NCBI GenBank assembly: GCA_018889975.1
Contig: CP076546.1
Coordinates: 434,001-498,000 of the forward strand
DNA from: Bacillus sp. NP157
GTDB taxonomy: Bacteria > Pseudomonadota > Gammaproteobacteria > Xanthomonadales > Rhodanobacteraceae
Direction: 5' to 3'
DNA length: 64,000 bases
Position numbers and translations under genes: made by a program. Position 1 is the first letter of the stretch; every line of letters begins with the position of its first letter. The notes under the pieces are model-generated. The model saw nothing but the letters and a program-made list of their open reading frames with translations. It had not been told where the DNA came from and did no database searches. Shown piece after piece: positions 16,957-28,438 of this stretch.

Positions 16957-18079
16957 GAGAGTATCCAGAAGCCCGCGAGGGACTTCGCATACAAGGTTGC
17001 AGGGGCAAAAAATGCGGGGTCGGGGAGCCGGATCCATTCTCACGCTAACTCGCGGAGGATGTAAGGGATGGTCATGTCGATCGGATTGGACGTCAGCGCG
17101 CGCGACTGCGCCGTGGCCTCGTATGACAACGGCAAGGGTGTTGCGCTGGGGAAGTTCGAGCAAACCCCGGCAGGACATGCACGGCTGGCCAGGAAGCTTC
17201 TGGATTTACGGCCTTCCTGGGTGGTGATGGAAGCGACCGGGATCTATCACCTGGACCTGGCCATCGCGCTGGATCGGGCTGGATTGCCGGTCTCGGTCAT
17301 CAACCCGCGCAGTGCCAAGCGGTTCGCCCAGCTCAAGCTCAAGGGCACCAAGACCGACACGATCGATGCGGGGTTGCTTGCCGAGTATGGCGAGGCGCTC
17401 AAGCCGGCACGCTGGATCGCACCGGAGCAGGCGGACCTGGCCCTGCGGGACCTGGGACGGCAGGTGAACCGGCTGTTGGGGGAGCGGGTCCGCGCGAAGA
17501 ACCGCCTGCACGCCCTGACTGCCAAGAAGGGCACGCATGTGCTGCTGCTCGAGGACGAAACCGAGGCCGTCGCCACCCTCGATCGGCGCATCGAACGCCT
17601 GCGCGGTGCGATGCGCCAGCAGATCGACACCGATCCGGTGCGCCAAGCCCAGCTTCGCCACATGACCGCAGCCCCGGGCATCGCCGAGGTCTCGGCGATG
17701 GCGGTACTCGCTGAACTGGCCATGCTTCCCAGCACTATGAAAGCGCCGCAGGTCAGCCGCCATGCGGGCCTGGACGTTTGTCACACCCAATCGGGCACGA
17801 GCGTCCACGGACGGCCGCGGCTAAGCAAGGGCGGAAACACCTACCTGCGCGCAGGCATGTACATGCCTGCGCTGGTTGCCGTGCGCTACGACCCCTTGGT
17901 CAAAGCCTTCTACGAACAGCTGCTTCGTCGCGGAAAGGCCAAGCGCCAGGCCCTCGCGGCAGTCATGCGCAAATACCTCACCGGGCTCTGGGCTTGCCTG
18001 CGCGACAACGAAAACTTCGACGTCACCAAGCTTTTTAGCCCAGAGCACCTTAGGCAGGGTTGACCGGGAAGAGAGTATC
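16957..18079 (+). mobile_element. IS110-family insertion sequence
   Basis: The element carries one transposase gene (17068-18063). The 9-base sequence GAGAGTATC occurs at 16957-16965 and again at 18071-18079, which would bound an element of about 1.1 kb with the short direct core repeat expected for IS110. Outside it, GCCCCCCGCCCC (16932-16943) and GGGGCGGGGGC (18090-18100) are inverted, as if the element sits in the loop of a stem-loop. The non-coding left part (16966-17067) could encode the bridge RNA known for IS110 elements. The ends are inferred; the left end could lie further out. Confidence 0.6.
17068..18063 (+). CDS. IS110-family transposase (DEDD type)
   Basis: A 331-residue transposase with the N-terminal RuvC-like DEDD domain: Asp in IGLDVS, Glu in VMEATGIY and Asp in [13 protein letters not shown]. 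The C-terminal transposase_20 domain has [12 protein letters not shown] and the SRHAGLDVC serine region. IS110 enzymes recombine DNA guided by a bridge RNA from a non-coding end. The frame is full length, so the element may be active. The start is ATG 17068 or 17074 after a GGAGG site. It lies 136 bases upstream of icmF. Confidence 0.92.
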
Positions 18080-18199
18080 TACAGGGTTAGGGGCGGGGGC
18101 ATACGGCCGCGCACGCTGCACTGCATCAGAGCCCGGGCCAGCGGCGGCGGTAGAATTGGCGGGTTCCCTATCCCCGCATCGGTTTTTCCCGGAGTTTCC

Positions 18200-21100
18200 A
18201 TGAGCTCGCAGCCCAAGCACATCCCCGCCAGCCACACCGACGCGGAGGCCAGCCCGCTGCGCTTCGTCACGGCGGCGAGCCTGTTCGATGGCCATGACGC
18301 GGCGATCAACATCATGCGCCGGATCATCCAGAGCCAGGGCGCCGAGGTGATCCACCTGGGCCACAACCGCTCGGTCGAAGACGTGGTGCGCGCGGCGTTG
18401 CAGGAAGACGCTGACGCCATCGCGCTGTCGTCCTACCAGGGCGGCCACGTCGAATACTTCAAGTACATGGTCGACATGCTGCGCGAGCGCGGCGCGTCCC
18501 ACGTCCGCGTGTTCGGCGGTGGCGGCGGCACGATCACGCCGGAAGAAATCAAGGAACTGCAGGCGTACGGGGTAGAGCGTATCTACCACCCGAACGACGG
18601 CATGAAGCTCGGCCTGACCGAGATGATCGAAGACGTGATGACGCGCACCCGCAACGCGCAGAAGGCGCGTACCGAACAGGTGCCCGCCGCGACCTCGATC
18701 GACGACGAGATCTCCATCGGCGGCATGCTTTCGGCGATCGAAGAAGACGCGCTGCCGTCGGCCGAGCTGGAGCGCCTGCGCAAGGAATGGAAACTCGCCG
18801 GTGGCAAGACCCCGGTGCTCGGCCTCACCGGTACCGGCGGCGCGGGCAAGTCCTCGGTGGTGGATGAGCTGCTGCTGCGCTTCCTGCATGCCTTCCCGGA
18901 GATGCGCATCGCCGTGCTCGCCGTCGATCCGACCCGTCGCCGCAGTGGTGGCGCGCTGCTCGGCGACCGTATCCGCATGAATTCCCTGCGCAGCCACCGC
19001 GTGTACATGCGTTCGATGGCGACGCGTCGGCAGCATGCCGCCACTTCGGTGGTGCTGCACGACTGCATCGATTTCCTCAAGGCCCAGGCCTACGACCTGG
19101 TGATCGTCGAGACCGCCGGCATTGGCCAGAGCGACTCGGAAATCGTCGACCTGGTCGACTTCCCGGTCTACGTGATGACCAGCGAATACGGCGCGGCCAG
19201 CCAGCTGGAAAAGATCGACATGCTCGACTTCGCCGAGCTGGTCGTCCTCAACAAGTTCGACAAGCGTGGCGCCGAAGACGCGCTGCGCGACGTGCGCAAG
19301 CAGTGGAAGCGCAACCGCATCGCCTTCCAGCTGGCCGACGAGAAGGTGCCGGTCTACCCGACCATCGCCAGCCAGTTCAACGACCCGGGTGTGACCTGGA
19401 TGTTCGACAACCTGTGCCGCCTGCTGCGCGAGAAGCTTTCGCTGCCGGGCGCGGGCTGGACGCCGGACGTCGACACCAGCCTGCGCGAGCCGCGCGCGAC
19501 GGTGCTGATCCCGGGCAGCCGGGTGCGTTACCTGGCCGAGATCGCCGAGCAGGGCCGCGGCGTGAACGGCGGCATCGCGAAGCAGGCGGAAGCGGCGGCG
19601 AAGGCGCAGCACTATTTCGAGTCGCTCAAGGACATCGGCGACGACGCGCTGCCGCGTGCCTTCGACCTCTACGACCATGCCTTGCTCAGCGTCGAGGGCG
19701 ACCGTTCGCTCGCCACGCTGCGCCAGCGCTACAACGAGGCCGTGCGCGAGCTGTCCAGCGAAGCGATCAACCTCCTGCGCGAGTGGCCGGCACGTTTTGC
19801 CTCGGTCACCGCCGAGTACAACGAGTACACGGTGCGCGACAAGGTGATCCGCGTGGAGAACTACCGCGAGTCGCTGAGCCACCAGAAGATCCCGAAGGTA
19901 TCGCCGCCGAAGACCAAGGACTGGGGCGAGCTGCTCTCGTTCCTGATGCGCGAGAACCTGCCGGGCTACTACCCGTACACCGGTGGCGTGTTCCCGTATC
20001 GCCGCGCCGGTGAAGACCCGACCCGCATGTTCGCGGGCGAGGGTACGCCGGAGCGGACCAATCGCCGTTTCCACTACCTGTCGCTGGGTGGCGCCGCCGC
20101 GCGCCTGTCGACCGCGTTCGACTCGGTGACGCTTTACGGCGAAGACCCGGCGCCGCGCCCGGATATCTACGGCAAGATCGGTAACTCCGGCGTCAGCATC
20201 GCCACGCTCGACGACATGAAGAAGCTGTATTCCGGCTTCGACCTGTCCGCGCCGAGCACCTCGGTGTCGATGACCATCAATGGCCCGGCGCCGATCATCC
20301 TCGCCATGTTCATGAACACGGCGATCGACCAGAACATCGAGAAGCACCTCAACGAGGAACCCTCGCGCTGGGACGCCGTCAACGCCCGCATCGCCGAGCT
20401 CTATCCCGACGGCAATCGCCCGAAGTACAACGGCGACCTGCCGGCCGGCAACAACGGCCTCGGCCTCGGCCTGCTGGGCGTGTCGGGCGAGGAAGTCGTC
20501 GACGAAGAAACCTACGCGCGGATCCAGGCTTACACGCTGGCGACCGTGCGCGGCACCGTCCAGGCCGACATCCTCAAGGAAGACCAGGCGCAGAACACCT
20601 GCATCTTCTCCACGGAATTCGCCCTGCGCATGATGGGCGATATCCAGCAGTTCTTCGTCGACAACAAGGTCCGCAACTTCTATTCGGTGTCGATCTCGGG
20701 TTACCACATCGCCGAAGCCGGTGCGAACCCGATCAGCCAGCTGGCCTTTACGCTGTCGAACGGCTTCACCATCGTCGAGTACTACCTCGCCCGCGGGATG
20801 AAGATCGACGACTTCGCGCCAAACCTGTCGTTCTTCTTCTCCAACGGCATGGACCCGGAATACACGGTGATCGGCCGCGTCGCCCGTCGCATCTGGGCGC
20901 GTGCGATGCGCGAGCGCTACGGTGCCAGCGCGCGCAGCCAGATGCTCAAGTACCACATCCAGACCTCCGGCCGTTCGCTGCACGCGCAGGAGATCCAGTT
21001 CAACGACATCCGCACCACGCTGCAGGCGCTGTATGCGCTGTTCGACAACTGCAACAGCCTGCACACCAACGCATACGACGAAGCGATCACCACGCCGACG

Positions 21101-21652
21101 GAAGAGAGCGTGCGTCGCGCCGTGGCGATCCAGCTGATCATCAACCGCGAGCTCGGCCTCAACTTCAACGAAAACCCCTGGCAGGGCAGCTACGTCGTGG
21201 ACGAGCTGACCGACCTGGTTGAAGAAGCCGTGTACAAGGAGTTCGAGGCGATCAGCGAGCGCGGTGGCGTGCTCGGTGCGATGGACACCATGTACCAGCG
21301 CGGCAAGATCCAGGAAGAGTCGATGTACTACGAGCACAAGAAGCACGACGGCTCGCTTCCGCTCATCGGCGTCAACACCTTCCTGCCCAAGGACCACGGC
21401 GGCGAGATCGCCACCGAGATCGAGCTCATCCGTTCCACCCCGGAAGAGAAGGGCCAGCAGATCGACAACGTGCTGCTGTACGGCAAGGCTCGCAACGGCC
21501 TCGCCCCGGACAGCCTGCGCAACCTGCAGAAGACCGCCCGCGATCGCCGCAACGTCTTCGAACAGCTGATGGACGCCGTCAAGCACAACAGCCTTGGCCA
21601 GATCAGCCACGCCCTCTACGACGTCGGCGGCGAATACCGCCGCAACATGTAG
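18200..21652 (+). CDS. icmF: Fused isobutyryl-CoA mutase / MeaI-type GTPase (IcmF)
   Basis: A 1150-residue, coenzyme-B12-dependent carbon-skeleton mutase that interconverts isobutyryl-CoA and butyryl-CoA. The order is typical of IcmF: B12-binding domain (about 20-150, with FDGHDAA giving the cobalt-ligand His32), G-protein chaperone (P-loop [12 protein letters not shown] at 208-219, then [11 protein letters not shown] and NKFDKRG), then the mutase barrel (from about 560, with [20 protein letters not shown] and [14 protein letters not shown]). The fused chaperone separates it from plain methylmalonyl-CoA mutase. ATG 18200 has CGGAG upstream. The stop TAG is the TAG inside a REP unit. It fits valine-derived isobutyryl-CoA metabolism. 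Confidence 0.93.
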
Positions 21653-21833
21653 GAGCACGCCCGCGCGCGACATCTTTTCGCGACCACGCACAGGGATGTG
21701 TCGGCACCACCAAAACGAACCTGTCGCAGCCAAAAAACGGAAATATCGCCACCACCGAAACGGATATATCGCCACCACCGAAACGGATGTCCATGTTCCC
21801 GAATACCCTGTCGCGCGCAGGCGCGCTCCTACA
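21648..21833. repeat. Pair of inverted REP units spanning icmF end and the next gene start
   Basis: A slightly diverged REP unit at 21648-21670 supplies the icmF stop codon. A perfect inverted unit at 21811-21833 lies inside the first codons of the SGNH-like gene. Between them is a tandem-repeat tract. Confidence 0.8.
21696..21786. repeat. 23-bp tandem repeat, about four copies
   Basis: The last two copies are nearly identical around ATATCGCCACCACCGAAACG, with a 23-base period (21743 and 21766). Two more diverged copies lie upstream (GTCGGCACCACCAAAACGAA, then CTGTCGCAGCCAAAAAACGG). The tract ends at the ATG of the SGNH-like gene, so copy number changes would alter its leader. Confidence 0.75.
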
Positions 21834-22587
21834 GATCCTGTTGCTGTTCCTGCTCTGCCTGGCGACGGCCGCCTCCGCGGCGTCGCCGCCACGCCGCATC
21901 CTCTTCGTCGGCAACAGCCTCACCTATGTCAACAACCTCCCGTCGGCCACGGCTTCGCTGGCGCCGCCCGACGTGGAGGTGGACGCATTCGCCTTGCCGG
22001 GCGCCTCGCTGGCCGACGGCGAACACAATGCGCGCCTCGCCGACCTGCTTGCCCACGGCCACTACACCGACGTGGTGTTCCAGGAGCGAGGCGGCGATGC
22101 GGTCTGCCATGGCGAGGGCTGTCTCACCCGCCCGCACCACGTCGAGGTGAGGCGGGCGAGCACGGTGCTCGCGAAAATGGCCCGCGATGGCGGCGCACGG
22201 CTCTACTACCTGGGCACCTGGCAGCTCAACACGGTCATCGAGCCGGAGCTGGTCAAGGGCGAACGAGACATCGCCGCCGCCATGGGCGCCCGTTACATCG
22301 AACTGGGCGAAACCTGGCTGCGCCTGCGCGCCGCGGACCCGAACGCTGCGTGGCTGCACAGCGATGGCCAGCACCCGGGCCACGCCACTACGGCGCTGAT
22401 GGCCGTGCGCGTCTGGCAGGCGCTCTCGGGCGAGCGGGCGACGCGTCCTCCCTGCGTCGGCGGCACGCTCTACTACCACGCGCCCAGCGACGACGGCTTC
22501 TTCCATGTCGACCGCGCGGCGCAGCCCGTGACATGCCTCGTGAGCCAGGAGCAGGTCGCGGCCTTCGCTGCGTCCAGTCCGGACTGA
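21787..22587 (+). CDS. Secreted SGNH/GDSL-like hydrolase family protein
   Basis: A 266-residue exported protein. After a hydrophobic signal segment ending ATAASA, the block I motif is FVGNSLTYVN (Ser nucleophile) and the block V-like motif is SDGQHPGHAT (Asp and His). This fits the SGNH hydrolases that cut esters or acetyl groups, and the substrate is unknown. Four cysteines in the mature part may pair. Codons 9-16 (LSRAGALL) are encoded by a REP unit, so the positively charged part of the signal peptide comes from the repeat. Starts at 21787 or 21793 are both possible, and no good ribosome-binding site decides. Confidence 0.75.
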   Translation: MSMFPNTLSRAGALLQILLLFLLCLATAASAASPPRRILFVGNSLTYVNNLPSATASLAPPDVEVDAFALPGASLADGEHNARLADLLAHGHYTDVVFQERGGDAVCHGEGCLTRPHHVEVRRASTVLAKMARDGGARLYYLGTWQLNTVIEPELVKGERDIAAAMGARYIELGETWLRLRAADPNAAWLHSDGQHPGHATTALMAVRVWQALSGERATRPPCVGGTLYYHAPSDDGFFHVDRAAQPVTCLVSQEQVAAFAASSPD

Positions 22588-22672
22588 CGCAGGCTCGCGG
22601 ACCGGCCGCGGACATGCCGCCCCGCGCGCACCCCTGCTAAGCTCGCCCGATCGATTCGGGGGAGTCCAGGGA

Positions 22673-24979
22673 ATGGCAAACGAAGATGCGCGCGCGTCAG
22701 CCTCGGCTGATGCCGAACCGTTGTGGCAGCCGCCGTCCCTCGTGCTGTCGATCAACAAAGTGCTCGCCGGCTTTGTCATGGGGCTGCTGTTCGTCTCGGC
22801 GCTGGGGCTGTCGTCCACGTTTGGCTTTCCCTGGACGGTGGTCATTCCGTTCGCGACGCTCGGCCTTGCCGTGGCGGTCCATGAGCTCGGCCATTTCATC
22901 GCCGCCCGGCGAGGCGGGATGTGGATCCTGTCCGTCCGTCTCGGCCCGCTCCAGTTCGCACCCAGGCGGCGCGGCTGGAAGATGCGCGTGAAACGCGCCG
23001 CGACACGCGGCGCGCTGGGCTCCGTCAGCGCGTTGCCACCGCTGGGTAAGCCGTGGCGCCCGGTCTTCATCCGCTTCATGCTGGGCGGCGTGGCAGCGAA
23101 TGCCGTTTTGATCGCGCTGCTCGTCGTTGGCATGGTTCTCACGCCCACCTTGCATGCGAAGGCCGGCTGGGTGGCCGCGATCTGCGTAGCGGTCGGGCCG
23201 CTGGTGAACATCCTGCCGTTCCGCCACGGGATGGACTCCGACGGCTTGCAGGCCCTGCGCTGGTGGCTCCATCCGCCGTCCGAATCCTCGCTGCGAAACA
23301 CCGTGGCGCTGGTTCGCATGAACTACGCAAGGCGGCTGGCGGAGATCTCGCCGGCCGACGTGGCGATTTTCGAGGGCATGAGCCCGATGCACGCCCTCTG
23401 GTCGCGGGTGAAGGACGACCTGGCCCACGGCGCGTGGCGCGAATGCGCCGGGCGAATGGGCGCCTGGAAGGCAGCGCTGTCCAGCGACCCCGCCCAACGC
23501 GCCGCGCAATCGGAATTCGCGAGCCTGGTACGGCGTGAGATCGAATTCGCGGCCGCGGTCGTTGCCCGTGATGCAAGCCTGCTCCCGGACGCAGCCGCCC
23601 TGCGTGACGCGAGCTGGCATATCCCGGCACTGCCGCACCGCTACGACGTGTTCAGGGCGTGGCTCGCTGGCGGTGGGCATGGCATGGCCCAGGCAAGGCG
23701 CCGCGCGCTCGATGCCGCCGCAGACAGCCTCAGCTTCACGGCCGAGGAAAGCGAAGGCCTGTTGCTCGATGCGCTCGCGGCGACCGATCGCTGGGCCGTG
23801 GAACCGGCCGCCGCCGCCGACGTAGACGGCATGACCTCAGCGGCGGGTGACAGCGACGAGGACAGCGATGCCGGTACGACGTCAGCGCAGCCGCCGTCCA
23901 TCTGGCAGCCCACGCCAGGTACGCGGTCTACGCTTTCATTGGTGTGGCTTGCGGGCCTGCTGATGCTGGCTTACCTGGCGATCCATGGGAACGCGGCCCG
24001 GTACGGCGTGACCCTGGCCTTCGTCGTGGGCATCGTTGGGCTGTTCGCCTCCTTCCTCGTGCGCGAGGTCGCCCGCTTCGTCGTGGCGCGGCAGCAGGGC
24101 ATGGTCGTGCTTGGCTTGCGCTTCGGGGCACTGCAAATCCTCCCTTTGCGCGGCGGTATGCGGATGCGCTGGCGTCGCTGGCGGGCGGGGCAGGGCTTCT
24201 CCGAACTGCATGCCATGCCGTCCGCCACGCGTCCCTTGCGCCGTGGTTACCTCTGGCTTGCCCTTGCTGGCTTCGTGCCACAGCTGGCCCTCGCGGCGCT
24301 TTGCTTGCTGGCCGCGCAGCTGGCCAGCGACATGCTGGTCCACTCGATGCTCACCCTGGCGGGCTATGCATCGCTCATGCCGTTTTGTAATCCCTACTCG
24401 GCAGCGCCTTCCGAGCTCAACGATGTCGTCAACGCCTGGCGATGGTGGCGCCACCCGCCGGACGAAGCGCACTTTCCGAGCTTGCGACTGCATGCGCGCG
24501 TGCTATCGGGTGCACCGGTTTCCCTGTTGTCCGAACAGGAACTGGAGACCATCGCCGATGGGTCCCCGGTGGCGGGCGCGTGGTATCGCGTCAAGGCAGC
24601 GCAACAGCGTGGCGCATGGTCGGATGCCGTGGAGCTGGGCCTTGTCTTGCAGGACGCTGTTTCGACCGACCCGCAGGGTGAAGCCGTTGCGGAGATCGCC
24701 ATGCTCACGCGGCAGGAGATCGACTGGATGTCGGCCGTGAACGAGCGTGACGCTACATGGCTCCCGGGAGATGCGGATGTCCAGGCAGCGCGCTGGGGGA
24801 ATCCAGCGTTTGGCGCACGCTGCCGGGCAGTGCGGGCGTGGCTTACGCGCGATGCGGCGGCGCTCGCCGTGGCGACCGGGGAGGCGGAAGCCGAGGCCAG
24901 CCGCAGCATCGATCGGTCGTTGGTGGAGAGCGAGCGGCTCATATTCCGCGCGCTAGCTGCTACACCGAACCACGTGTAG
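22673..24979 (+). CDS. Internally duplicated M50-like membrane metalloprotease, second copy degenerate
   Basis: A 768-residue protein made of two homologous halves. The first (about 25-385) has the zinc motif HELGH at 70-74 in a membrane helix, and NILPF with DSDG (179-191), the second M50 (site-2 protease) signature. The second half (about 420-768) aligns at an offset of 394 residues, but HELGHFIAARRGGM has become REVARFVVARQQGM, and the NxxP/DG motif is lost (MPFCNPYSAAPSELND). RWWxHPP is kept in both (196 and 590). Each half ends in a soluble helical domain. An acidic linker (390-404) joins them. The stop TAG is supplied by a REP unit. The substrate is unknown. Confidence 0.8.
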   Translation: MANEDARASASADAEPLWQPPSLVLSINKVLAGFVMGLLFVSALGLSSTFGFPWTVVIPFATLGLAVAVHELGHFIAARRGGMWILSVRLGPLQFAPRRRGWKMRVKRAATRGALGSVSALPPLGKPWRPVFIRFMLGGVAANAVLIALLVVGMVLTPTLHAKAGWVAAICVAVGPLVNILPFRHGMDSDGLQALRWWLHPPSESSLRNTVALVRMNYARRLAEISPADVAIFEGMSPMHALWSRVKDDLAHGAWRECAGRMGAWKAALSSDPAQRAAQSEFASLVRREIEFAAAVVARDASLLPDAAALRDASWHIPALPHRYDVFRAWLAGGGHGMAQARRRALDAAADSLSFTAEESEGLLLDALAATDRWAVEPAAAADVDGMTSAAGDSDEDSDAGTTSAQPPSIWQPTPGTRSTLSLVWLAGLLMLAYLAIHGNAARYGVTLAFVVGIVGLFASFLVREVARFVVARQQGMVVLGLRFGALQILPLRGGMRMRWRRWRAGQGFSELHAMPSATRPLRRGYLWLALAGFVPQLALAALCLLAAQLASDMLVHSMLTLAGYASLMPFCNPYSAAPSELNDVVNAWRWWRHPPDEAHFPSLRLHARVLSGAPVSLLSEQELETIADGSPVAGAWYRVKAAQQRGAWSDAVELGLVLQDAVSTDPQGEAVAEIAMLTRQEIDWMSAVNERDATWLPGDADVQAARWGNPAFGARCRAVRAWLTRDAAALAVATGEAEAEASRSIDRSLVESERLIFRALAATPNHV

Positions 24980-25048
24980 GAGCGCGCCTGCGCGCGACAT
25001 CCTGTTGCGTCGTGGCAACCAGATGTCGCGCGCAGGCGCGCTCCTACA
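24975..25048. repeat. Inverted REP pair (REPIN)
   Basis: A perfect direct REP unit (24975-24997) faces a perfect inverted unit (25026-25048). The arms form a long hairpin across a 28-base spacer and separate the M50-like gene from exbD, which is convergent. The left unit contains the M50-like stop codon. Confidence 0.9.
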
Positions 25049-25069
25049 AACAAAGCGTGGGTTAGCGTG

Positions 25070-25480
25070 TCAGTCGGACGCGAAGTCGATCCGTTCCATC
25101 CTGTGCGCCTTCACCAGCGCGAGGACCCGCGCCACGTCCTCGTAAGGGGCTTCATCCTTCGCATGCAGCTCCACGTGCGGGATCAGCGAGGCGTCGTCAC
25201 GTCCACTGGCCGCAGCGATGTCCAGCTGCGTGGCGAGGCTCGCGTCGGTCACCAGCGTGCCGTTGAGGAAGACCATGCCACCCGAGTCGACGGTGACCCG
25301 AAGTGGTTCGGGAGGATCGAGGATCTCCCCCGTGCCATTGGGCAGGTCGACCCGGTTCCTTTGCGCGATAACCGGCGTGGAAATCATGAAGATGATCAGC
25401 AGCACCAGCAGGACGTCGACCAGTGGCGTGACGTTGATGCCGGCGATGGGGGACGACTCGGCCCTTGCAGAGAAAGCCAT
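25070..25480 (-). CDS. ExbD/TolR-family proton-channel subunit
   Basis: A 136-residue protein with a short cytoplasmic N-terminus, a single membrane helix (INVTPLVDVLLVLLIIFMIS, carrying the essential Asp) and a periplasmic domain. ExbD works with ExbB to drive TonB-type transport. The ATG at 25480 (MAFSAR) follows a GGAGGAA site, better than the in-frame ATG at 25531. No exbB or tonB is next to it, so it is a lone copy here. Confidence 0.9.
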   Translation of the reverse strand: MAFSARAESSPIAGINVTPLVDVLLVLLIIFMISTPVIAQRNRVDLPNGTGEILDPPEPLRVTVDSGGMVFLNGTLVTDASLATQLDIAAASGRDDASLIPHVELHAKDEAPYEDVARVLALVKAHRMERIDFASD

Positions 25481-25624
25481 ACTTCCTCCTTGCACGTTCG
25501 ATGATGTGGTGGGAACCCTGGTGCCGGCCATGGGGGATGCCGGCGGCCCGAGCTTGCCCTGCCAAAGGGGGCTTCCCGCAAGCCCCGGCCCGGGTGCATG
25601 ATCGGCGGATCAGGTGGAGACGGC

Positions 25625-26578
25625 ATGGATACCGAGTTGCACACCGCGGCGGAGCCGCCGCCGAGGCCCATGGCCGCCCTCTGGCGCCGCTGGCTGGCCT
25701 TCCTCATCGATTGGATCATCCTATCGCTTGGCGGCGCCATCGCCGGCCTCGTCCTGTTCGAGCCCTTCGCTCGGATGGGGCTGTGGTGCCGCGTGCTCGG
25801 CTTCGCCATCGCGGTGATCTATTTCGGCATCTTCGATAGCGGCTGGGGCGGCGCGGGCTCTCCCGGCAAGAAGGTCTTGAGTATCCGCGTCGTCGATGGC
25901 GCAGGCCGGGTGATCGCCGTCTGGCGTGCGCTGCTACGTGCCGCCGTCATCTGCGTCCCGGTGTTGCTAAATGGCATGTTGCTGTTTCCCGCAGAAGCCC
26001 CGCTGGGCGCACGGGCCCTCGAGGGCCTGGTCGGCGGCCTGTTGCTTGCGTCGCTCTACCTGCTCGTATTCAACGCCGGCACCCGGCAGGGCCTGCACGA
26101 CCTGGCGACGGGCACGTTCGTGATCCGCGGAAGCGCCTCGCGCGAAGCGATGGCCGGATACACCTTCTGGCGGCCGCATCTTGCGATAGCCAGCGTTTTC
26201 CTCGTGGTTGCCGTGCCGATCAGCCTCGCGGGCCTGCCGGTCTTCCTGCGCTTTACGCCGGCGATGAACCACCAGGTGCTCACGCCGCCGGTGGGAGGGC
26301 AGGTCGCCATCCTGGGCGCCTGGATGAACATGAATCCGGCTACGGGGCCGGCTCGCCACTGCACATCGATGAAGGTGCTACTCGGCGGAAGCGGTGTCGG
26401 CATCGACGATCCGCAGCTGGCCCGGCTCGTTGCGATGCGCCTGGCGCCGCGAGCGCATTGCCACCTCGAGGGACCCCTGCCGGTACGCATGCAGTACGGC
26501 TTCGACCTCGGTTTTGCGAGTGGCGTCGGATTCCGCGACCTCGTCCTCGATGAAGCAGGCCTGACCCGCTCGCCTTGA
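25625..26578 (+). CDS. RDD-family membrane protein
   Basis: A 317-residue membrane protein with the RDD domain in its first 165 residues: LWRRWLAFLIDW with the signature Arg and Asp, then DSGWGGAGSPGKKVLSIRVVD and TRQGLHDLATGTFV. Another helix at about 185-205 anchors a C-terminal periplasmic domain of about 110 residues. RDD proteins are membrane proteins of mostly unknown function, some linked to ion transport. ATG 25625 has GGTGGAG seven bases upstream; an ATG nine codons earlier lacks it. Confidence 0.82.
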   Translation: MDTELHTAAEPPPRPMAALWRRWLAFLIDWIILSLGGAIAGLVLFEPFARMGLWCRVLGFAIAVIYFGIFDSGWGGAGSPGKKVLSIRVVDGAGRVIAVWRALLRAAVICVPVLLNGMLLFPAEAPLGARALEGLVGGLLLASLYLLVFNAGTRQGLHDLATGTFVIRGSASREAMAGYTFWRPHLAIASVFLVVAVPISLAGLPVFLRFTPAMNHQVLTPPVGGQVAILGAWMNMNPATGPARHCTSMKVLLGGSGVGIDDPQLARLVAMRLAPRAHCHLEGPLPVRMQYGFDLGFASGVGFRDLVLDEAGLTRSP

Positions 26579-26632
26579 ACCTAACCCGCCATTCGTAGTC
26601 CCATGGGGGTTGGTTTTAGGGAGTGCGTTGCG

Positions 26633-27460
26633 TTGAGCAGTCAGTCGTCGTCAGGTTCGAAGTGGGTGGCAGGCGTGTTGATCGTCGCCATCATTGCCTT
26701 GGGTGCCGTGTTCTTCTATCGCGAGAAGCAGGCCAGCGTATCCGCGCAGGCGCCGCCGGCCGCTGCGTCCTCTGCCCTTGCTCCACCCACTGCCGTGAAC
26801 AACGCCGCGCTCCCCGAACACCCGATCGGCCCCGCCAGCGGCTCGACCGCCGGGCTGCCCGCGCTGGGCGACAGCGATGAATCGGTCCTGGCCGGCCTGC
26901 TCGGCCTGACCAGCGATGGTGCGCTGAAGACACTGCTGCGCCCCGATGCGATCGTGCCGCGCATGGTCGCCACCATCGATGCGCTGCCGAAGCAGACCAT
27001 CGGCATGAACGTGGTGCCGCTGCGCGTGCCGACCGGGCGCTTCCAGGTGCAGAACGCCGACGGCATGTTCGCCGAGTCGAAGCAGAACCTGCAGCGCTAC
27101 GACACCTACATGTATGTCGCCGACCACATGGATCCGAAAGCCGTGGCCGCCTGGTACAAGCGCAGCTACCCCTTGTTCCAGCAGGCCTACCGCGACCTCG
27201 GCACCGAAGGCTATTTCAACGACCGCCTCGTCGAAGTGATCGACCACCTGCTGAAGGCGCCCGAGCCGAAGGGCCAGCTGCAGTTGATCCCGGCGAAGGT
27301 CGGCTACGTCTATGCCGACGCGAACTACGAGCAACTCTCTGTCGGCCAGAAATTCATGATCCGCGTGGGCGCGGAGAACGAGGCGAAGCTGAAAGCCAAG
27401 CTGCGCGCGCTGCGCGAGGCGATCCTCGCGAACGCACCGGCTACGACCAGCACCGAGTAA
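26633..27460 (+). CDS. DUF3014 domain protein, membrane anchored
   Basis: About 275 residues: one N-terminal membrane helix (WVAGVLIVAIIALGAVFFY), an Ala/Pro-rich linker, and a soluble DUF3014 domain from about residue 75 to the end. The function of this family is not known; topology puts the domain in the periplasm. The likely start is TTG 26633, nine bases after AGGGAG. An ATG at 26603 would add 10 residues but lacks a ribosome-binding site. It stands alone between the RDD gene and a convergent isomerase gene. Confidence 0.75.
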   Translation: MSSQSSSGSKWVAGVLIVAIIALGAVFFYREKQASVSAQAPPAAASSALAPPTAVNNAALPEHPIGPASGSTAGLPALGDSDESVLAGLLGLTSDGALKTLLRPDAIVPRMVATIDALPKQTIGMNVVPLRVPTGRFQVQNADGMFAESKQNLQRYDTYMYVADHMDPKAVAAWYKRSYPLFQQAYRDLGTEGYFNDRLVEVIDHLLKAPEPKGQLQLIPAKVGYVYADANYEQLSVGQKFMIRVGAENEAKLKAKLRALREAILANAPATTSTE

Positions 27461-27517
27461 CGGTCGATCGGCCGCGACGAAGGATGTCGCGGGCGTCATC
27501 CATGACAGGGTGTCCTT

Positions 27518-28438
27518 TCAGTTCTTCTTCGACGGATCGCGCACGGGCACGTTGATGTTGCACAGGTCGATCTTGCCCGCCGGCCGCGTGTAGAAGTCAT
27601 CGCGACGATTGCGCTTGGCGTCGACCACCGCCGCGAACACCTTGCTGTCGGTGCGCAGCACCTGGATCGGCGTGCGCTCGGCTTCCGGCACGTCGGCGGC
27701 GAGGCGGACGTCCTTGATCGTCACCCGCTGCGCGGGCTTGTCGTAGAAGCCCATCGGTTCGCCACCGCGGGGGTAGGCCGAGAGCAGCTCCATGCCCTTG
27801 ATGACCTTGCCGGCCACGGCGAGGTTGCGGTCGAGATTGCGCGGCGCCTGGCCGATGATGGCGTACAGCGAACTGCCGTTGCCGGTTTCGGCACCGGTGT
27901 CGCGGGCGACACCGACCGTGCCATAGCAATGGGCGATCCACGCTTCACCGGCCTTCGGATCGCGGGCGACCGGGAAGCCGTCCGAGAAACCCACCTCCGG
28001 CGCATAGACGTCGCCATCGGCGAGCCGGGTGAACGGATACGGCTTGCCGCCCTTGCGGGTGAATTCCGGGGTGAGCGTTTCCTTCGCGGTGCCCAGGCTC
28101 TTGGCCTTCTTCTTGTCGTCGCCGTCGGGATCGCCCCACTGGGTGACGAAGTTGTCCTGCACGCGGATCACCTGGGTGCCGTCGAAATAGTGCTCGCGGA
28201 TCAGCGTGCGGATGTTCGCGGCGTGCTCCGGCGACCAGTCCTGGGCCAGCTCGATGATGACGCGGCCCTGCGGCAGGTCCATGTAGACGAGGTTCTGCGG
28301 ATCCGGCGTGCGCCAGTCGGACGGCGTGGCTTTCGCCAGCAGTTCCTTAGCGGTGGGCGACTTTTTCGCGTCGTCGGCGACGGCGGGCAGCGCCACGGCG
28401 GCGGCAAGGGCGAGCGTGAGGCAGGTACGTGCGAGCAT
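27518..28438 (-). CDS. Periplasmic cyclophilin-type peptidyl-prolyl isomerase
   Basis: A 306-residue exported protein. MLARTCLTLALAAAVALPAV is a Sec signal peptide. The body has cyclophilin strands such as GRVIIELAQDWSPEHAANIRT, then YFDGTQVIRVQDNFVTQWGD and IGQAPRNLDRNLAVAGKVIKGMELL with long inserts. The catalytic FHR of classical cyclophilins is not conserved (IRVQDNFVTQWGD in its place), so activity may be weak or adapted. The C-terminus has Cys in LCNINVPV. The start at 28438 follows GGGGA. Confidence 0.8.
   Translation of the reverse strand: MLARTCLTLALAAAVALPAVADDAKKSPTAKELLAKATPSDWRTPDPQNLVYMDLPQGRVIIELAQDWSPEHAANIRTLIREHYFDGTQVIRVQDNFVTQWGDPDGDDKKKAKSLGTAKETLTPEFTRKGGKPYPFTRLADGDVYAPEVGFSDGFPVARDPKAGEAWIAHCYGTVGVARDTGAETGNGSSLYAIIGQAPRNLDRNLAVAGKVIKGMELLSAYPRGGEPMGFYDKPAQRVTIKDVRLAADVPEAERTPIQVLRTDSKVFAAVVDAKRNRRDDFYTRPAGKIDLCNINVPVRDPSKKN

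Follow-up and report, generated by a model that had tools for sequence, protein, structure and literature searches.

A single gene in the Luteibacter genome deposited as Bacillus sp. NP157 encodes two site-2 protease (S2P) units of the M50 family, joined head to tail in one chain of 768 residues. It lies in a stretch of 64,000 nucleotides (contig CP076546.1, positions 434,001 to 498,000), referred to here as the window, of a genome that forms a single contig of 4.88 Mb. Judged from its sequence, the first half probably works as an intramembrane zinc protease. The second half has an M50-like core but has lost the zinc-ligand histidines. We give an even chance to the reading that an S2P-type protease unit has taken on an added non-proteolytic binding role, and is here fused as a live and a pseudoprotease half. 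The gene comprises the following features.

22658..22664, + strand: GGGGGAG 5′ of the ATG, a likely ribosome-binding site (by eye)
22673..24979, + strand: whole gene, two fused M50-type units, 768 residues (open reading frame translation, self-alignment)
22754..23287, + strand: first half, membrane M50 core, residues 28–205 (Pfam PF02163 at residues 61–183; hydropathy)
22880..22894, + strand: HELGH, zinc/catalytic motif, intact, residues 70–74 (sequence)
23207..23245, + strand: NILPFRHGMDSDG, second motif NxxP..DG, intact, residues 179–191 (sequence)
23288..23791, + strand: first half, C-terminal helical domain, residues 206–373 (homology to the domain modelled in the second half)
23792..23905, + strand: acidic linker with Met 387
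23921..24469, + strand: second half, degenerate membrane M50 core, residues 417–599, with an RseP-like model (alignment, model, hydropathy)
24062..24076, + strand: REVAR in place of HExxH, residues 464–468; His to Arg twice, Glu retained
24389..24427, + strand: NPYSAAPSELNDV in place of NxxP..DG, residues 573–585; P and G gone, N and D retained
24470..24967, + strand: second half, C-terminal TPR-like domain, residues 600–765 (model)

The internal duplication

The preliminary description of this sequence had reported two halves at a constant offset of 394 residues, which is borne out by alignment and shuffle controls. The halves (residues 1–404 and 405–768) are homologous over almost their entire length, with a Smith-Waterman score of 371 that was reached by none of 1000 shuffles (maximum 73) and by none of 1000 in which shuffling was kept within blocks of 20 residues (maximum 112), and the ungapped offset of 394 gives the most identities among the offsets tried. 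The landmark positions were also correct, with HELGH at 70–74 opposite REVAR at 464–468 and RWWxHPP at 196 and 590 (RWW at 196/590, HPP at 200/594). Identity between the halves is ~30% (BLASTP, 357–373 columns) which, together with the single contig, rules out an assembly artefact of a repeated stretch. Each unit consists of a membrane-embedded M50 core, read as four transmembrane segments, and a TPR-like helical domain that would be cytosolic on the topology deduced from charges. Met 387 in the acidic linker may be a relic of the start of the second unit, and no Shine-Dalgarno sequence was seen ahead of it by eye.

Active sites and structure of the two halves

The histidines of HExxH are the zinc ligands in the M50 family. 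Zinc binding by HExxH is also described in PMC10978774. The first half retains all seven signature residues (H70, E71, H74, N179, P182, D190 and G191), confirming the earlier observation that HExxH and NxxP with DG are kept, and HELGH sits within a hydrophobic stretch by hydropathy. At the equivalent positions the second half has R, E, R, N, S, D and V. The claim that it had lost both motifs is thus right for the patterns but not for the residues, since three of the seven (E, N and D) persist while both histidines, the proline and the glycine are gone. With REVAR at 464–468, the second half lacks the HExxH expected of an active M50 protease. Pfam Peptidase_M50 (PF02163) matches the first half alone, at residues 61–183 (E 3.6e-08 with the whole protein), and scores 33.5 bits with the whole protein and 29 bits with the isolated first half, above the cut-off of 27.2. 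Searched alone against Pfam and NCBIfam, the second half gave no match up to E 10.

The second half is nonetheless homologous to the M50 core. Its model resembles RseP with a helical solenoid, the core aligning to an RseP orthologue, and fold likeness between the halves is supported. A full-length fold model was too poor for use (predicted local distance difference test, pLDDT, 49). Foldseek returned no match to the second-half model at E 0.001 or better, its top 50 being largely helical-repeat proteins, and phmmer against solved structures matched the first half weakly to RseP (E 0.41) and MJ0392 (E 4.7). A curated TPR profile gave no qualifying match to the helical domain, no PDZ domain was matched in Pfam, and the NCBIfam RseP model TIGR00054 reached 17.4 bits, its cut-off being 147.55. 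An NCBIfam sactipeptide model that matched the whole protein at residues 269–320 with 18.8 bits (cut-off 75) was taken as chance.

Distribution of the family

We searched with a profile (A1) built from 24 units and counted matches beyond the RseP-like background, scoring all candidates in the genus and the best five to eight candidates per genome in the family, order and class. Matches were found in six of 23 genomes of the genus, 29 of 233 of the family (E 1e-15), 47 of 398 of the order (E 1e-12; 22 already in the family list) and three of 369 of the class (one previously uncounted). This gave 55 genomes with a match, 35 of them strong (E < 1e-40); the other 20 matches may be more distant M50 proteins. 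One match was present in 54 of the 55 genomes and two units in the window genome only. Likewise, among the open reading frames of 30 loci the two-unit match was confined to the window protein, and tblastn against plasmid and phage records gave nothing at E 1e-3. On this coverage only the window genome has the two-unit form, and the live/dead pattern is therefore not a conserved design. The internal duplication and the pairing of a live-looking with a dead half, as first described, stand, as does the fold likeness of the halves, whereas conservation of the arrangement, which the same description had put forward for checking, is unsupported: no homologue sharing the duplication and no second two-unit genome turned up among the candidates scored.

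Motif losses in single-unit relatives

Besides 32 single units, the 34 other strong members include a fragment (G200) and a gene that contains an in-frame TGA (G229). Of these 34, 32 have an intact HExxH and both exceptions are from Luteibacter; five weaker matches (L100–L103, L114) also carry it, and the tally leaves out 15 weak order-level matches (E 1.5e-32 to 2.2e-15). The G229 gene (locus L098), from another genus, has a single in-frame TGA and may be broken.

Of the two exceptions, Luteibacter sp. dw_328 (G120) has YESGR at HExxH and SLIP..ESGG at the second motif, and G113 has YLAGT and SLLP..ESAG, respectively. Both genes are open and single-unit. With all candidates scored, neither genome contains another family member, the remaining profile match being the RseP-like one, so a dead unit needs no live partner. 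With the catalytic columns left out of the tree, parsimony gives three motif changes, and the losses in G120 and G113 would thus be independent. A clade of the second half with G120 is rejected by the approximately unbiased (AU) test (p-AU 5.3e-4), as is one uniting the second half, G120 and G113 (p-AU 1.2e-48), ruling out a single shared dead lineage. A live unit is retained in four of the six Luteibacter genomes that carry the gene.

Constraint on the second half

Conserved positions were defined from 17 single units outside the genus at a 60% threshold, using the L. yeojuensis protein as reference and treating the catalytic positions separately. In the core, the second half has retained 17 of the 27 conserved positions, compared with 30 of 135 other positions (p 9e-5); in the helical domain the figures are 28 of 37 and 40 of 130 (p 1.3e-6). 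The same pattern is seen in G120 (20/27 core, 30/37 helical) and G113 (17/27, 30/37), and the corresponding counts for the first half are 23/27 and 21/37. Codon statistics favour the reading frame of the first half and, a little less strongly, that of the second. This pattern of retention supports constraint at fold-level positions of the second half and, as far as sequence can tell, argues against a plain pseudogene or random debris.

A reciprocal retention, of the core in the first half and the helical domain in the second, was not upheld as firm. For 22 single units the Fisher test at four thresholds gave p 0.028, 0.0096, 0.0092 and 0.030, and for the 17 outside the genus it gave 0.088, 0.12 and 0.084. 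The p-value was 0.012 against L. yeojuensis alone and 0.10 or 0.15 on requiring one or two more agreeing relatives. Without the seven catalytic columns it ranged over 0.028–0.0995 (32 single units) and 0.069–0.21 (27 outside the genus).

Interpretation

We propose that the first half would cleave as an active intramembrane zinc protease, and that the second half would act as a membrane-anchored pseudoprotease and helical module, which binds a substrate or partner, or shapes access, through both its membrane core and its helical domain. The second half would serve the live half beside it, lying in the same membrane orientation and in contact with it. The two further active-site losses, in stand-alone Luteibacter proteins, suggest that binding by the unit may be valuable without cleavage. 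A putative pseudo-dimer within the chain is plausible and compatible with the deduced topology. More tentatively, the three losses in one genus could reflect an S2P lineage in the course of becoming pseudoproteases, with the dead half as a regulator in cis or a substrate-binding subunit.

Several points weigh against our proposal. Two units are found in one genome only and the gene is absent from 17 of 23 Luteibacter genomes. The dead units of G120 and G113 exist without a live partner. A pseudo-dimer would not be an expected feature of an S2P, since the oligomers of SpoIVFB were judged by their authors to be likely detergent artefacts (PMC11486902). Finally, constraint before and after the motif loss is inseparable, because the data hold no second two-unit genome.

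The main rival, possible though doubtful, is that the second half is a functionless by-product of tandem duplication, drifting in a dispensable and fast-evolving accessory gene. Drift would fit the confinement of two units to one genome, the mere ~30% identity of the halves, and the lack of the gene in 17 of 23 Luteibacter genomes, several of which retain the neighbouring RDD and/or ExbD genes. However, the second half is open with coding-like codon statistics, and it has kept conserved positions well above others in both domains.

The history of the duplication can be read in two ways. The single-unit protein of L. yeojuensis is nearer to the first half up to ~residue 312 and nearer to the second half beyond it (tail 63% versus 37%), with a change-point statistic of 65 that none of 5000 permutations equalled; this is stronger than the case for reciprocal retention but is a single comparison. 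The last ~60 residues of the second half are 63% identical to this protein, whose tail is 30–42% identical to other Luteibacter single units. Since the second-half tail is the nearer to L. yeojuensis, we infer that both halves descend from a gene of the L. yeojuensis sub-clade. Weighing against such descent, the second half falls outside five other Luteibacter units in the whole-length tree, at weak branch support (85/76), and the halves as sisters are marginally rejected over the whole length (p-AU 0.038). These same results, and the switch at ~312, would fit an old two-unit gene in the genus, the single units of relatives being hybrids, left by recombinational collapse, that join the head of the first half to the tail of the second. 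We consider this improbable; it concerns history and is compatible with any of the proposals on function. The same regional bias is seen as a non-significant trend in single units outside the genus (p 0.08–0.12; 0.07–0.21), which counts against collapse because those genes cannot be such hybrids. In addition, every single-unit gene would need a separate collapse event, and region-wise tests leave the halves as sisters unrejected (p-AU 0.06, 0.18, 0.33, 0.15).

It is very unlikely that the whole protein is non-proteolytic, the Luteibacter family being a membrane scaffold in which motif loss in the first half is merely pending; the three motif losses in the genus, and an intact HExxH in 32 of 34 inspected single-unit members with both losses in Luteibacter, would agree with this, but the first half has all seven signature residues and a Peptidase_M50 match above the cut-off, and a live unit persists in four of six gene-bearing Luteibacter genomes.

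The locus and neighbouring genes

In four of five relatives from the same genus the single gene occupies the same slot, between a fused mutase gene (B12-binding, MeaB and methylmalonyl-CoA mutase domains) and a DUF3014 gene; in G113 it lies on the opposite side of the DUF3014 gene. We fetched the interval from 16 of the 17 genomes of the genus that lack the gene (all but G114). Neighbours often persist there, for example as ExbD and SGNH-like matches ~25 bp apart in G111, and the M50 gene is thus an accessory gene. No convincing remnant of it was found in the intervals of six gene-lacking genomes (best protein E 0.015). The interval from the mutase to the peptidyl-prolyl isomerase gene (window 18107–28345; loci L031–L035, L117–L132) varies strongly across Luteibacter, with SGNH-like, M50, ExbD and RDD genes gained or lost among genomes. 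An IS110/IS116-type transposase gene (17068–18063) lies upstream of the mutase gene. Elsewhere in the window genome (G000:C1:4631050-4631349), PF02163 also matches within an open frame of 837 residues, at a site distinct from the RseP-like match and from the gene described here.

Two features follow the gene.

24976..25047, no strand assigned: inverted pair of 22-mers resembling repetitive extragenic palindromic (REP) elements, with the TAG stop of the M50 gene inside the first copy
25598..26578, + strand: RDD-family membrane protein gene, a recurrent neighbour of the M50 family and candidate partner

At ≤2 mismatches, the window contains 15 copies of the REP-like 22-mer GTAGGAGCGCGCNTGCGCGCGA, the pair here and 13 further sites, and shuffles contain none; some copies form inverted pairs. 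Since one pair overlaps the stop codon, the last residues of the M50 protein may derive from a REP insertion.

An RDD gene lies within ~1.1 kb of the M50 gene in seven of the 35 strong genomes (four of the six Luteibacter and one in each of three other genera), some of the other 28 being fragmented assemblies. With 2–7 RDD matches per genome, chance adjacency would be unlikely by rough estimate. The RDD gene persists in five Luteibacter genomes without the M50 gene. Likeness between the RDD proteins extends beyond the RDD domain (loci L031, L033, L040, L043, L047). We regard the RDD protein as a candidate partner or substrate, no more.

Relation to known intramembrane proteases

With the M50/S2P family (PF02163, e.g. 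RseP) the protein shares HExxH and NxxP..DG in its first half and a second-half core whose model aligns to an RseP orthologue. It differs in having no Pfam PDZ match, in the TPR-like helical domain after the core, and in the pairing of two units within a single chain, of which the second lacks the zinc-ligand histidines. The iRhoms belong to a protease family unrelated to M50 and are not known to be fused to a live unit. They are described as inactive relatives of an intramembrane protease that act as regulators (PMC3149277), and the second half may resemble them in this. EGY3 of plant chloroplasts is, like the second half, an S2P homologue without HExxH. It is classed as a pseudoprotease that helps to stabilise other proteins (PMC10978774), but is a separate plant gene unfused to a live unit, the likeness being one of description. 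In SpoIVFB, the core is followed by a cytosolic C-terminal CBS domain thought to aid substrate positioning (PMC11486902). Each unit here similarly has one C-terminal, putatively cytosolic domain after the core, but this is helical rather than CBS and two units are fused. A review sorts bacterial S2Ps into four groups, among them a PDZ-containing and a CBS-containing one, and the portion of it drawn on here names no inactive bacterial member (PMC10202637). The open-access papers searched yielded nothing linking Luteibacter with a site-2 protease, no bacterial S2P pseudoprotease as judged by titles, and nothing closer on M50 tandem duplication in intramembrane proteases.

Pseudoproteases have already been described among rhomboids and plant S2Ps (EGY3, PMC10978774). 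The new aspect, if our reading is true, would be three bacterial losses within one genus, one of them beside a live copy in the same chain. This would provide a small natural system for studying what function an intramembrane protease fold has when it no longer catalyses, and whether regulation of a live unit by a dead one occurs in cis.
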